Source: Halobacteriales archaeon YIM A00013 (lineage in GTDB: Archaea > Halobacteriota > Halobacteria > Halobacteriales > Haloarculaceae). Taken from it: a stretch of DNA of 64,000 nucleotides. The stretch is from positions 1,054,001 to 1,118,000 of the forward strand of contig JAKCFM010000001.1 of NCBI GenBank assembly GCA_025041195.1. Reading direction: 5' to 3'. Within the stretch, counting starts at the first letter, position 1, and every line of letters starts with the position of its first letter. The notes under the pieces were generated by a model. That model did not search any database and had not been told where the DNA came from. It worked only from the letters and a program-made list of their open reading frames with translations. Below, in pieces: positions 56,312 through 61,698 of the stretch. Both the position numbers and the translations under genes were made by a program.

Positions 56312-56638
56312 AATTCGATCGATCGGCAGTTATTTTACCCATCCGTGTCAACCGCCACCGCGGAGCGATGTCAACAGTTGGCTCACCCAGCGAAGATGCC
56401 AGTCGAATCCAATGTTCGAGAAGACACCAACCAGGGCGTTCACGCCAGTTCTCGGGCGGATCCAACAAATGATTCATATCTTTGAATATATCAAATATAT
56501 TTCTATTCGGCAGATTCGTTCCATCCAATTCCGTTCTAAATGGCATTGTTCGCGATAGTTCCAATGCTATTGTAAATAACCTTTTGGGTAACTAATCCGG
56601 TACTTTTTTATACCCGCTTGCTAATATTAAAATATATC
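56312..56638. promoter_or_regulatory. AT-rich divergent intergenic region; leaderless promoter of the T4SS-like module
   Basis: About 325 bases separating the lipoprotein gene from the secretion-like module; no credible gene. TTTATA at 56607-56612 lies 27-32 bases before the ATG at 56639, ideal for a leaderless transcript. The DNA from here through the next two genes is visibly richer in A and T than the rest of the window. Confidence 0.5.
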
Positions 56639-57109
56639 ATGGTAAAAAAGACGCCTGTGTCTGGAATCAGAGCACGTGTGGTGGGTGGTATGAAACGGAT
56701 TTTCCATACTGCTGCTCACGTACTGATGCGGCCCGGCCGCCACGATTTACACCTTTCAGTACTATTGATAGCGACAGCACTTTCACCCGTACTGGCGAGA
56801 CCAGTAGTGGCCCAGGTTGGAGTCTCTGAGGCAGAACAGGTCCTCTGTAGCGGCTCAACGGGATTTAATATCGCACAGATTATTACTGTGGGCCTAGGAT
56901 TAATATCAATGTACTTCATCCTTAAATTCCTAGTTCGGATGATGACGGGGTTAGACAAGGCAGGGAGCACTGATTCTGGGGCGCAGGCCCAGGGGAAACA
57001 GGAAGCGAAGGGAGGGATCTACTCACTTGTTGCTGCACTACTTCCTGTACTGGTTCCGGTTTTCCTGAACGTAGCAGGGATCAATGTGGCGTCCTGTCTT
57101 TTCCCATAA
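56639..57109 (+). CDS. VirB2/CedA1-like two-helix pilin candidate
   Basis: Small membrane protein of 156 residues. A basic N-terminus and a hydrophobic signal-like segment (LSVLLIATALSPVLARPVVAQ, about 39-59) are followed by two hydrophobic helices (about 77-103 and 127-148). They are joined by a short Gly/Ala/Lys/Gln-rich loop (GKQEAKGG). One cysteine precedes the first helix (C70) and one follows the second (C153), so the mature protein could be closed by a disulfide. Signal peptide, two helices and small polar loop are the VirB2-type conjugative pilin layout, also seen in archaeal DNA-import pilins. The assignment rests on topology and the VirB4 neighbour, not clear sequence identity. Confidence 0.6.
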   Translation: MVKKTPVSGIRARVVGGMKRIFHTAAHVLMRPGRHDLHLSVLLIATALSPVLARPVVAQVGVSEAEQVLCSGSTGFNIAQIITVGLGLISMYFILKFLVRMMTGLDKAGSTDSGAQAQGKQEAKGGIYSLVAALLPVLVPVFLNVAGINVASCLFP

Positions 57110-57117
57110 CGGTAGTG

Positions 57118-58467
57118 ATGAGTATTCAGCCTCGAGAAGCCATTATCGCCGTATGTTTTATCGGAATCCTTCTATTTGCGGGGAGTGGGACGGCTGTCGC
57201 TGAATCAGTAGCCAATCCTTGGACTGATGATTCAAATCAGTTCGACCGGAGTGAGACGGACGCCCTACGGCTCAGTGAACCCGGGGGCGTCTACCAACAG
57301 AATGAATCGACAGAACAGACGAACGCCTCGGACTATACAATTAATGTGGGGTTCGTCGAAGTTCCCCTCGGTGAAGCGATCACAACCACCTTGCAATTTT
57401 TCATTGATCAGCTTCAGGCAGGAATCAGTTCGCTCGTCACGTCGTTTTCGGAATACATTCTTGGGCTTCCTGCGCCAGGAGAAGCGGATGATCCGTCATC
57501 ATGGGTCACTGCCGGTGGGGTCTGGCAGGCAGTGTACGCAATCTATGGAATAATGTCTGCACTCGCCATTGCTTTTCTGACTCCATCGTTTATGGTTGCG
57601 ACGGACACCAAACAGAAACGAAAACGGAACGCTCGATTCGCAGAACTTGGAAAAGCGGCATTTTTCATAATTCTTGGTATCCCAATTACAGCATTCTTTC
57701 TCCATTTGGGGAACTCGTTAGTAATGACGATTGCACCAAGTAGTACGGAGATGTTAGTAAACACAGATGGACTTGCAAATTTAGGTATTGGAATTATTTT
57801 TGGATCCATCCTTATTGGTGTGAAGTCAATGGCTGCATTATTTGCGATTGGATTTACAGTCGTAATTTATTTGCTTGCGCTTCTTTCTGTAGCGCTCTGG
57901 CCGCTTTTCTGGGCGACAAGCGTACAACCTGAGAACACTGTGAAGTCTTTCGGATATCTTGGTCTCTCAATATTCCCACAAATAATCTTACTAAAATTTT
58001 TGCAAAGCGGTATAATGAGATTTCTGTATTATCTCCCTCTCGATACCCTAGGCAATTCCGTCTTCAAACTCGTGGCAACGACGATTGGGATTGGTATCAC
58101 GTTTATTGGTCTTCCGTATATTTTCCTTACAAAACTGCTCCCCGGTGCAGCGATGGTTATCGATCGGGGCGCCGACAGTACGACGCAAACCTCAGGCGAA
58201 ACGGCATCCGGGGGACGGCCAGCCGGAAAATACACGAGTACTCAAAGCGCCGGCGGCATGTCGCAATCGGTTGGTCCACGGAGTAGTGGTCCCACAACCC
58301 GTTCGCACCAACACCAACAGCGTCCCAACGCCCGGGCAGGGCCGAATCCAGACCGAGCAGCACCAGTAGACAGGACTGACGTAGGTGCTACGGAGTCGGA
58401 AAGGAATTCGAATGAACCATCCTCGGATCGACGATCTGTTGGCCCCGAAAGTAGGGGCCCCCGGTAG
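57118..58467 (+). CDS. VirB6/TrbL/CedA-like polytopic membrane protein
   Basis: Protein of 449 residues. A signal peptide (IIAVCFIGILLFAGSGTAVA, 9-28) and an exposed acidic region (about 30-80) are followed by an amphipathic stretch. About six hydrophobic segments lie between 133 and 342 (around 133-160, 178-205, 217-240, 241-267, 280-300, 316-340). A disordered Gly/Ser/Arg/Gln-rich tail (350-449) closes the protein. Such a channel-like protein between a pilin candidate and a VirB4 ATPase corresponds to VirB6/TrbL of bacterial type IV secretion and CedA of archaeal DNA import. ATG 57118 directly follows a GTG at 57115. Codons are unusually AT-rich for the window, suggesting transfer. Confidence 0.62.
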   Translation: MSIQPREAIIAVCFIGILLFAGSGTAVAESVANPWTDDSNQFDRSETDALRLSEPGGVYQQNESTEQTNASDYTINVGFVEVPLGEAITTTLQFFIDQLQAGISSLVTSFSEYILGLPAPGEADDPSSWVTAGGVWQAVYAIYGIMSALAIAFLTPSFMVATDTKQKRKRNARFAELGKAAFFIILGIPITAFFLHLGNSLVMTIAPSSTEMLVNTDGLANLGIGIIFGSILIGVKSMAALFAIGFTVVIYLLALLSVALWPLFWATSVQPENTVKSFGYLGLSIFPQIILLKFLQSGIMRFLYYLPLDTLGNSVFKLVATTIGIGITFIGLPYIFLTKLLPGAAMVIDRGADSTTQTSGETASGGRPAGKYTSTQSAGGMSQSVGPRSSGPTTRSHQHQQRPNARAGPNPDRAAPVDRTDVGATESERNSNEPSSDRRSVGPESRGPR

Positions 58468-58524
58468 GCATAGATTCAAAAGCGAATACGCACAGACTAC
58501 GCAATACACCAATCACACCAGACA

Positions 58525-61500
58525 ATGGATCCATCAACAAACGACAACAGTTCAAGCGTGTCCGGGCTCATCCTCCCGCACGTCGATACGACCGTCACAA
58601 TAAAAGGTATCGTCACTTTCGACAACATGTACGCGTTCGCGGTCCCCGTAGCTGCCTTCGTGATTGCACTGCTCGCCTGGTCGATCAATTTCTACATGGT
58701 CGCAGCGCTTGCGTTTACGATTACGTTGGTGGCACTACCGGTGGTGTTGTATCTTACCTATACGAATCCGTACTACCTATCATCATGGGAACGAATCGAA
58801 CGATTTGTCGAATCGCGGCGACTCCAGCAGAAATTTCCATACCAGTATCATGAGACGTTGGGGCGGGAAATCCACGGTGTGAAGCGATTATACCCCGATG
58901 GTACCGCAAAAATGAACGATGGGAGACGAGTGGGACTCATCGGCGTTGAGGGGATGAATGCCTGTCGAATTACCGATGAACAGGCGAGCACATACGTCGA
59001 AACACTCACAAGCGGCATCGATGAACAGATCAAGGATCTTCCATTTTCTATTTACGCGACATCGGCCAACTTCGACCCTGAATCGTTGGTAAAGCATCTC
59101 TCTGAACAATCGACAGCCATTGAAGAGTCCTCACGCGAGACCGATTCAAAGACAAAACAGTACATCTCCGAGCTGCTCTCCGATGTCACATCGTGGTTTA
59201 TCGAAACTGAATCCGAGATGTGGGAGGCAAACCGGTGGGAGTATTTCATCATTGTCTCCGTACACCCTGACGAACTCCACGTCGATCCAATCTCGGAACG
59301 CACAGGCATCATTCCTCGTCTCATCCCCTTTTCAAGCACTAATGAGGACGAACAGAGACAGGCTATCGAAACCGAACTTCGGGCCGAGCTGGACAACCGG
59401 ATGGCCACATTCGAAAGTGCACTTTCCTCCGTGAAAGGAATCAACAGCGAGCGAGCCGGCGTCCTGGATACGACCCGGGTATTGCTCCGATACTGGTCAG
59501 GAGAGCCGAATCTCACTCACGGATCCGAAATTCAGCGTTCGATGGCGGACGACGACAGCCGCGTGAACGTTGGCGAAAGCCCAACCGAACGACTGCTGAC
59601 GCCGAGCAAACTCGACGCCGCAGATGGTCGCATTGAAGTGGGTGATGAACTCTGTAAGACGTTCTGTGTCATGGGCTGGCCGGTCGAACCGCCACCGATG
59701 TTTCTGGCGAATCTGTTTACGATGCGCACGGCGAACGTCGACGTTAAGCTTCACGTCGGCCCGGAACACAAACAGGCGACGATCGACGAGTTGGAACGGC
59801 TGTACGCAGATGTTGAATCCGAGGAGATGGAACGCGTCCAGAAAATGGACGCGAGCAAAATCCAGATCCAGAACGACAAAGACGCCGTCCGGAAGATGTA
59901 CCTTCTATTGCGTAACACGACAGCACAACCATGGAAGGTAAGTATGTACGTAACCGTCCGTGTGGGCCCAGAGGAGGCCCACGAGTACGCAACGAAAACA
60001 GGTCGAAGTGGTGACTCACTGTATCTATCGAAAGTCCGGGCGCTCGAAGATGCGTGTGACGATGTTCTTGAAGTGCTGACGAGTGCGCCAGCTGGACTCG
60101 GTCCACGACAACCGAGCACGGACGTCTCAGCCCTCGACATGTTCGAATCATCATCCCCAACGGGGACGGATCTCTACCATGAAAAAGGGGATAAACCCAA
60201 ACGAACTCGGATGCTTGGTGGGGCCGTCGCTGCAACGTTTCCCTGGTGTGCAGGCGTGATGCAAGAGCCCGGTGGACTCCGTTTTGGTCGAAACAAACAG
60301 AACGGATCGGCAATCTTTGCGGATCCGTTTGAGCGAGGGGCGCCGCACATGCTCACCCTTGGACAGACACGTTCAGGAAAAACGTACTCCGTCGAAACGG
60401 CGTTGGCAGAGTGGTTCTGTTCCGATCCGTCGCGGTCGCTCATCGTCTGTGACACTGAACAGGGATTTGAGGGATTGACGCAGCTCTGTGGTGGAACGCA
60501 CATCGTGGTGGATGGTGAGCAGACCATCAATCCATTCGATATCCACCGTCCACCCCAACGCGTCAGGGAAGCCAACATCGGTGGCTCAAGTCACTTCCAA
60601 ATGAAAATAGACGAAGTGACGAGCTTTTTCGCCGGCATTCTCCGAGCGCAAGGGATTGATCCGTCACCATACATATCGACGATTGAAGACGCAGTCCAGC
60701 AGACGTATGAAACGCGTGGCATCTCACACGATCCCGCAACGCACGCGACGGATTCCCCGACAATCACTGACTTCGTTGATGTGTTAGAACAGATGCTCAC
60801 GACGCCTGAGCGCTTTACATTCACTGGCCACGAACGAGAGGCAGAACAACGGGTTCGAGTGGTGTCCGACTTGCTGGATAAGCTCAGTGGCTTTAAAGAA
60901 AACCGAAAGTATCACCATATGGTCGGTGAAACAGACACTGGCATCTTGGACAGTGAAACTGATATGGCGTATATCGACCTCAGCCAGTTCAATGAGGCGT
61001 CTGAGGCCGATAAATCCGTTATGCTCCACCTTATTTTCGGACAAGTGTATCAGAAGGTAAAGCGCACTGCTGGAGAAATCATCTTTTTAATCGATGAGGC
61101 GCACTTTTTGCTCCACAGTGAGGAAATGATCGAGTATCTCCAGGATGCAGCCCGGAGCTGGGCACGGTACGATGCTGCACTCTGGTTCGTAACGCAGTCA
61201 CCGCGAGAGTTCATCCAGCGGGCCCGATCGGTTGGTGCAGGCCAAGAAAATCAACGACGGACGATTCTGGACCAGTGTTCGATCATCCAGACGTTCAGAA
61301 CGCCCCGAATTGAAACGGAGATGCTCATGGATGGATTGGGACAAAACCGCCTCCAGGCGGAGTTCGTCAGAAACGCCGCTGTCACAGGAAGCACGGAGAG
61401 TCAGTACTCCGAGTGTTTGATCCACTTTCAGGATCGCGAAGGATGGTGGGAGAGCCATATTGAAGCGAGTCCGTTTGAGGATCTGGTCTGGAACTACGCC

Positions 61501-61698
61501 GGACGTACGCACGGTGAGTTCGATCGCTATCTCCGGGACAACTGGGACGGCTTTGACGATGCAGATCTTCCCTCACTTGATCCGCCATCACACGAATCAT
61601 CGCACCCTGAGAACAATGATAACGGCGTTTCGGAACTGTTTTCAGATAAGCCTGCAACGAACGGCGAGGAGTACACCGAACCCTACGGCGAACAGTGA
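58525..61698 (+). CDS. VirB4-type ATPase with N-terminal membrane hairpin (VirB3-VirB4-like fusion)
   Basis: Protein of 1057 residues. A two-helix membrane hairpin near the N-terminus (about 35-78, AFAVPVAAFVIALLAW and ALAFTITLVALPVVLYLTY) is of VirB3/PrgI type. A long VirB4-like middle domain follows, then an FtsK/HerA/VirB4-class motor. Walker A is GQTRSGKT (613-620), Walker B is IIFLIDEAH (852-860). Other family marks are VVDGEQTINPFDI, the LWFVTQSPREF sensor segment and an arginine-bearing QNRLQAEFVRNAA. It energises pilus assembly and substrate transfer in type IV secretion (family knowledge). It begins 57 bases after the VirB6-like gene and ends 6 bases from the convergent hflX. Confidence 0.85.
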   Translation: MDPSTNDNSSSVSGLILPHVDTTVTIKGIVTFDNMYAFAVPVAAFVIALLAWSINFYMVAALAFTITLVALPVVLYLTYTNPYYLSSWERIERFVESRRLQQKFPYQYHETLGREIHGVKRLYPDGTAKMNDGRRVGLIGVEGMNACRITDEQASTYVETLTSGIDEQIKDLPFSIYATSANFDPESLVKHLSEQSTAIEESSRETDSKTKQYISELLSDVTSWFIETESEMWEANRWEYFIIVSVHPDELHVDPISERTGIIPRLIPFSSTNEDEQRQAIETELRAELDNRMATFESALSSVKGINSERAGVLDTTRVLLRYWSGEPNLTHGSEIQRSMADDDSRVNVGESPTERLLTPSKLDAADGRIEVGDELCKTFCVMGWPVEPPPMFLANLFTMRTANVDVKLHVGPEHKQATIDELERLYADVESEEMERVQKMDASKIQIQNDKDAVRKMYLLLRNTTAQPWKVSMYVTVRVGPEEAHEYATKTGRSGDSLYLSKVRALEDACDDVLEVLTSAPAGLGPRQPSTDVSALDMFESSSPTGTDLYHEKGDKPKRTRMLGGAVAATFPWCAGVMQEPGGLRFGRNKQNGSAIFADPFERGAPHMLTLGQTRSGKTYSVETALAEWFCSDPSRSLIVCDTEQGFEGLTQLCGGTHIVVDGEQTINPFDIHRPPQRVREANIGGSSHFQMKIDEVTSFFAGILRAQGIDPSPYISTIEDAVQQTYETRGISHDPATHATDSPTITDFVDVLEQMLTTPERFTFTGHEREAEQRVRVVSDLLDKLSGFKENRKYHHMVGETDTGILDSETDMAYIDLSQFNEASEADKSVMLHLIFGQVYQKVKRTAGEIIFLIDEAHFLLHSEEMIEYLQDAARSWARYDAALWFVTQSPREFIQRARSVGAGQENQRRTILDQCSIIQTFRTPRIETEMLMDGLGQNRLQAEFVRNAAVTGSTESQYSECLIHFQDREGWWESHIEASPFEDLVWNYAGRTHGEFDRYLRDNWDGFDDADLPSLDPPSHESSHPENNDNGVSELFSDKPATNGEEYTEPYGEQ

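Follow-up and report, generated by a model that had tools for sequence, protein, structure and literature searches.

The 64,000-nucleotide stretch of haloarchaeal DNA analysed here (the window, G000:C1:1054001-1118000, G000 being the genome that carries it) encodes a compact unit related to type IV secretion systems (T4SSs). We regard this unit as probably a domesticated minimal T4SS of the genus Halocatena, analogous to Ced and Ted, and place the probability of this reading at about 0.62. Ced and Ted are chromosomal VirB2/VirB6/VirB4 systems, of which Ced moves DNA and Ted has been proposed to do so (PMC9905601). The machine is very probably T4SS-derived and functional, and DNA is slightly favoured as its cargo, because of the analogy with Ced and Ted and the apparent descent from conjugation-type systems. 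The window sits on the main replicon (2.73 Mb) of a Halocatena genome; among named relatives the closest is Actinarchaeum halophilum YIM 93972, with a VirB4 identity of 96%. This organism, filed under Halocatena in the NCBI taxonomy, is a haloarchaeon forming hyphae and spores (PMC10067837).

A preliminary description of the window had proposed three co-directional genes, encoding a two-helix pilin, a VirB6/TrbL/CedA-like protein and a VirB4-type ATPase, behind one leaderless promoter. The three open reading frames (ORFs) are present as proposed (Table 1), separated by 5 nucleotides (pilin-VirB6) and 57 nucleotides (VirB6-VirB4). Regarding the ATPase, assignment to the VirB4 family is secure by profile. 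NCBIfam VirB4 families match it with E values of 1e-35 to 2e-13 (partial matches, below the full-length curated cut-offs), and a 16-member VirB4 profile matches the solved VirB4 structures 4ag5/4ag6 at E 3e-20; the NCBIfam CedB model gives E 0.04. Walker A (GQTRSGKT, 613-620) and Walker B (the IIFLIDEAH region, D857-E858) are found at the predicted positions, and their key residues are invariant in 16 homologues. One or more N-terminal membrane segments lie at about residues 36-77.

The small protein leans toward a VirB2-type pilin on the strength of family profile, topology and gene order, the fold prediction being too weak to contribute. Of 13 homologues, 8 have Pfam T4SS_pilin as their highest-scoring family (best E 2.5e-4, below the cut-off); the window protein itself scores E 0.003, under the curated cut-off, and the pilin profile found no match among PDB chains by sequence. 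The three hydrophobic segments of the protein agree with a leader followed by a pair of helices, namely a leader of residues 1-58 and a mature part of about 59-156 with hydrophobic helices at 81-99 and 130-148 and a cysteine at position 70. Among more distant congeners the mature region is conserved at 92-100% and the leader at 33-45%, a contrast after residue 58 that marks the mature protein.

The VirB6-like protein has a signal peptide, an extracellular N-domain, about six membrane helices within residues 113-356 and a disordered tail, and sequence searches against Pfam, NCBIfam and PDB gave no match. Its AlphaFold core (about residues 113-343; predicted local distance difference test, pLDDT, mostly 60-80) was compared with 988 chains, of which the top three entries are R388 TrwI/VirB6 at Z 8.0, 7.3 and 6.9 and the fourth is Legionella DotA at Z 6.3, for helical proteins values below the level of about 13 at which Z becomes decisive. 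The R388 superpositions have root-mean-square deviations of about 6 A over 165-196 residues. As the four highest-ranking entries are all T4SS channels, we consider the identification as a VirB6-like channel moderate rather than weak. Between distant congeners this protein evolves much faster (45-52% identity) than VirB4 and the pilin (70-78%).

The three-gene extent of the unit proved too narrow. Two genes on the opposite strand, transcribed divergently from the other three, belong with it, and all five are kept together, with intact ORFs, in six of six distinct Halocatena genomes (G002 and G006, which have one contig in common, were counted once). The first encodes a lipoprotein with an RR motif for twin-arginine translocation (Tat) and the lipobox SVAGC, followed by repeats resembling a right-handed beta-helix. 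The Pfam Beta_helix signal is weak (E 0.1 for the window protein, E 3e-4 for its homologue in locus L045), and a profile search against solved structures yielded no convincing relative. In 6/6 Halocatena chromosomes, as well as in the plasmid loci L043-L047, L051, L053, L056 and L076, a beta-helix gene adjoins T4SS genes; of the 32 beta-helix paralogues in Halocatena, 12 are no more than 10 kb from a VirB4 gene, with a chance expectation of 0.5-1.7% per site. The second encodes a predicted surface protein with a signal peptide, an extracellular region, a Ser/Thr/Pro-rich stalk and a C-terminal membrane anchor, its hydrophobic segments being at 18-36 and 307-329. The stalk gene adjoins the beta-helix gene in all six Halocatena genomes and in the plasmid T4SS loci L044, L047, L051 and L076, and its product evolves fast (32-36% identity between distant congeners).

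Table 1. Features of the five-gene unit (window coordinates)
Feature	Position	Strand	Basis
Surface stalk protein, 335 aa	54032..55039	-	Two hydrophobic segments, gene neighbourhood
Tat-exported lipoprotein, right-handed beta-helix-like repeats, 405 aa	55094..56311	-	Sequence, weak Pfam Beta_helix
Divergent promoter region, 42.8% G+C	56312..56638	.	Sequence
Promoter element CGGTACTTTTTTATACCC, 18 bp	56598..56615	+	Identity in 6/6 Halocatena genomes
Candidate VirB2-type pilin precursor, 156 aa	56639..57109	+	Pfam T4SS_pilin, topology, gene order, conservation
VirB6/TrbL/CedA-like polytopic channel protein (moderate), 450 aa	57115..58467	+	AlphaFold core, structural matches
VirB4-type ATPase, 1057 aa	58525..61698	+	NCBIfam families, PDB profile match, invariant Walker residues

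The two gene groups diverge from a region containing the element CGGTACTTTTTTATACCC, which comprises a TATA box within a GGTA...TACC inverted repeat and is followed by CTAATATTAA. CGGTACTTTTTTATACCC begins 41 nucleotides upstream of the pilin ATG, the distance expected of a leaderless haloarchaeal transcript, in agreement with the promoter proposed at the outset. The element is identical in all six Halocatena genomes, including H. marina, in which the five genes occupy a different chromosomal position, and the rest of the intergenic region has mostly diverged. With up to two mismatches allowed, each genome contains one CGGTACTTTTTTATACCC site and a control pattern none; thus, no regulon appeared within this limit, and stand-alone pilin loci do not carry the element.

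The ordinary surroundings of the unit had been considered notable in a single chromosome. Upstream are sugar metabolism and other ordinary genes; downstream, a convergent HflX gene lies 6 nucleotides past the end of VirB4, and SBDS comes next. The ordinary setting stood, and the unit is not a single oddity, being genus-wide and vertically inherited. Trees of the module genes and of HflX+SBDS give the same species grouping. The ratio of nonsynonymous to synonymous substitution rates (dN/dS) of VirB4 is 0.040 in the comparison with YIM 93972 and 0.053-0.058 with more distant congeners, for which dS is near saturation; the values are 0.039-0.050 for HflX and 0.076-0.097 for the adjacent sugar genes. 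VirB4 is thus subject to strong purifying selection, comparable to that acting on HflX. These ratios, the gene trees and the unique conserved promoter element argue for a functional host system rather than a passing element. It is thus highly improbable that the unit is a conjugative element, newly integrated or in decay, although plasmid relatives exist, the G+C content of the unit genes is 0.50-0.55 vs 0.57 for the whole window, and the H. marina unit stands at another site, HflX and SBDS being paired elsewhere in that genome without it. Besides the occurrence in every genome and the housekeeping-like dN/dS, the absence of any transfer RNA gene at the locus and the intact state of all five ORFs speak against such an element.

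Relatives of the unit are found on haloarchaeal plasmids and integrated elements, where pilin, VirB6 and VirB4 genes are followed in most loci by a 1230-1540 aa VirD4-like protein, sometimes split, that bears weak TraG/TraD/VirD4 signatures. A plasmid collection contained 227 records with VirB4 relatives, with haloarchaeal genera the commonest and many products labelled 'transfer complex protein'. Of 17 pilin matches outside Halocatena, 15 have a VirB4 gene within 10 kb, and the gene order is the same in more than 15 loci. The three genes therefore travel together as had been predicted; the opposite outcome, named beforehand as one that would count against the proposal, was not obtained. Comparison with these plasmid relatives indicates that the chromosomal unit descends from conjugation-type systems. 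It also shows the layout of the haloarchaeal plasmid T4SS, comprising stalk, beta-helix lipoprotein, pilin, VirB6, VirB4 and VirD4.

The chromosomal unit lacks the last of these components. As first described, no VirD4 gene is nearby: matches to the profile A7 in G000 are confined to contig C3, with none in the window, and VirD4 is absent beside VirB4 at all six Halocatena chromosomal loci. In the genome G003 (98% complete), a 12-member VirD4 profile retrieved nothing at all at E 1e-5. This bears on the idea of a shared channel, in which plasmids supplying VirD4 in trans would borrow the chromosomal core. G004 fits this idea, for it contains one VirD4-like gene on the 18-kb contig C36 (locus L087) and its sole VirB4 is chromosomal; however, C36 may be only a piece of a larger plasmid, the plasmids of other strains encode full sets themselves, and G003 keeps the core without any VirD4. 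We consider a shared channel quite unlikely. Regarding relaxases, PF03432, the sole relaxase family searched, is absent in 8 of 9 genomes, so that the earlier statement of no relaxase stands for this family. We know of no archaeal relaxase. Having neither a coupling protein nor a detected relaxase, the unit would not serve to pass on its own plasmid. From the missing plasmid-only parts, the dedicated promoter and the two extra surface genes, we consider that it probably works for the host cell itself, in DNA exchange or secretion.

A domesticated T4SS might operate as follows. Signal peptidase would cut the pilin precursor after about residue 58, and VirB4, tethered to the membrane via its N-terminal helices, would use ATP to drive extraction of the two-helix pilin, from which a thin hollow pilus would be assembled on the VirB6 channel. 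At the cell surface, the beta-helix lipoprotein and the stalk protein may serve in adhesion, partner recognition or local envelope opening. DNA, probably single-stranded, would then be imported or exported between adjacent cells or filaments. A relation to bridge mating of the Haloferax type found no support in the analysis. An extended version is possible but doubtful: hyphae- and spore-forming haloarchaea would have domesticated a T4SS independently of Ced and Ted and built a mating-type pilus, with a core pilin, several stand-alone alternative pilins from other loci and a dedicated surface lipoprotein, for DNA exchange between filaments or during development. Any hyphal link of the unit is conjectural.

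Several points weigh against the reading as a domesticated DNA-exchange T4SS. VirD4 genes exist on other replicons in five of the six Halocatena genomes, and complementation in trans is therefore possible, while a single relaxase family was covered by the search. The VirB6 match at Z 8.0 falls within the tool's warning range for a mere shared helix arrangement, with a Foldseek E of 0.07. The pilin fold model, which served as the structural check named in the preliminary description, has a mean pLDDT of 56 and matched generic helical hairpins, leaving the fold unconfirmed; the archaeal conjugation pilus 8dfu came only at rank 49 (Z 6.0) among such hairpins and was not used as evidence. Furthermore, the sequence gives no indication whether the cargo is DNA or protein, or whether it is imported or exported.

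In the main rival explanation, a VirD4-less T4SS exports proteins or only builds a surface pilus for adhesion, filament cohesion or aerial growth, and no DNA is moved. VirD4-less systems are known in bacteria and include the protein exporters Ptl and Brucella VirB (PMC12102498). The unit includes two surface proteins, and Halocatena genomes contain extra stand-alone pilin genes. Since the archaellum and PilB3-type pili were lost in the morphogenetic clade (PMC10067837), there would be space for a different surface pilus. On the other hand, the nearest relatives, on plasmids, mostly have VirD4 and look conjugative, archaeal systems of equal make-up perform DNA transfer (PMC9905601), and no effector candidate was recognised adjoining the unit. 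On balance, protein export or a surface pilus without DNA transfer is rather unlikely, and the domesticated T4SS with DNA as cargo is preferred.

Systems of this kind are already known from hyperthermophiles, as Ced and Ted, and from Patescibacteria, as chromosomal and mostly relaxase-less T4SSs; the Halocatena unit would be a variant of this kind. Like Ced and Ted, it combines chromosomal pilin, VirB6 and VirB4 genes kept vertically within a clade, with candidate identities for the pilin and VirB6. Ted (TedA/TedB/TedC, Thermoproteales) shares with it a chromosomal location and VirB4, and has a leader-cleaved VirB2-like pilin and a VirB6-like channel, to which the candidates in the unit correspond; Ted has no relaxase, and neither has the unit for the one family searched (PMC9905601). 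However, Ted belongs to another archaeal phylum and has ParA-like, Rad50 and HerA-like neighbours, which were not seen at the Halocatena unit. Unlike Ted, the latter, known here from its genes, includes the Tat-exported beta-helix lipoprotein and the stalk protein. Ced (CedA, CedA1, CedA2, CedB, CedD and CedE; Sulfolobales) likewise has a chromosomal pilin, VirB6-like protein and VirB4-like ATPase and no conjugation-type relaxase, but the VirB4 role is thought to be split between CedB and CedD, the pilin is unprocessed and the system is UV-induced (PMC9905601, PMC11868833). The Patescibacteria systems are a bacterial co-option with VirB2-like pilins (Pfam T4SS_pilin), and contain more components of the monoderm class (PMC12102498).

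Closer in sequence are plasmid T4SSs of haloarchaea, such as those of Halalkalicoccus jeotgali (NC_014301), A. halophilum (NZ_CP071308) and Haloferax gibbonsii (NZ_CP063208), whose VirB4 proteins are about 29-38% identical to that of the unit. In the loci read, they share the order pilin-VirB6-VirB4 and often the beta-helix and stalk genes, but are far more diverse and mostly have the VirD4/TraG-like protein beside VirB4. The 44-kb H. jeotgali plasmid is an exception and lacks this coupling protein. In the open-access literature, no description of a haloarchaeal T4SS core was found, and the main text of Tang 2023 on the YIM 93972 clade mentions no VirB gene (PMC10067837). A vertically kept T4SS without a coupling protein in mesophilic haloarchaea, including species of the multicellular type, would mean that domestication extends beyond hyperthermophiles. 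To our knowledge, the machinery of haloarchaeal gene transfer has not been identified, and the Halocatena unit would offer a candidate for it. The pilin-containing layout of the haloarchaeal plasmid T4SSs contrasts with earlier statements that archaeal conjugative plasmids have no recognisable pilins.

Chromosomal sets without VirD4 also form a second lineage, in another genus, g20. There, four of eight genomes contain a syntenic chromosomal pilin-VirB6-VirB4 set with neither VirD4 nor a beta-helix gene, the VirB4 proteins being about 90% identical within g20 and 44% identical to those of Halocatena. A similar set is found in G108 (genus g21; VirB4 identity to Halocatena 41%). In the VirB4 tree, plasmid systems bearing VirD4 separate g20/g21 from the Halocatena clade (support 96/96). 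A common VirD4-less ancestor of the three groups gave a p value of 0.045 in the approximately unbiased test when all rows were included, and of 0.127 once long branches were removed. From these trees, one common VirD4-less ancestor appears marginally disfavoured, and one or two domestications may both fit. A conserved inverted repeat, TATGCTAAGGGGGGTTTAGCATA, lies upstream of the g20 pilin gene (L041, L080, L081); it is unlike the Halocatena promoter and could possibly be an operator.

Outside the unit, Halocatena chromosomes contain scattered beta-helix paralogues that have no T4SS genes around them (e.g., G000:C1:2658787 and C1:35884), and the family therefore also exists outside T4SSs. The 256-kb secondary replicon of G000 carries a complete, very divergent T4SS (G000:C3:170001-190000, locus L051), comprising stalk, beta-helix, pilin, VirB6, a split VirB4 and a 1542-aa VirD4-like protein. 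Three 'viral' contigs of IMG/VR (L055, L056 and L057) encode haloarchaeal T4SSs with VirD4, that of L057 being partial, and may be plasmids filed as viruses. Pilin-like genes are numerous in Halocatena, with 21 profile matches away from any VirB4 (about 2-6 per genome), vs two in the other haloarchaea searched. These stand-alone loci include L077, L078, L079 and L089-L100, and in G000 such genes are located at C1:2357159-2357476, C1:80842-81114 and C1:794157-794477. Synteny between species is seen for some (dN/dS 0.11 and 0.29), whereas others are interrupted by stop codons. Stand-alone pilins vary mainly in the leader and in the loop joining the two helices, and are possibly alternative or minor pilins of the single chromosomal machine.

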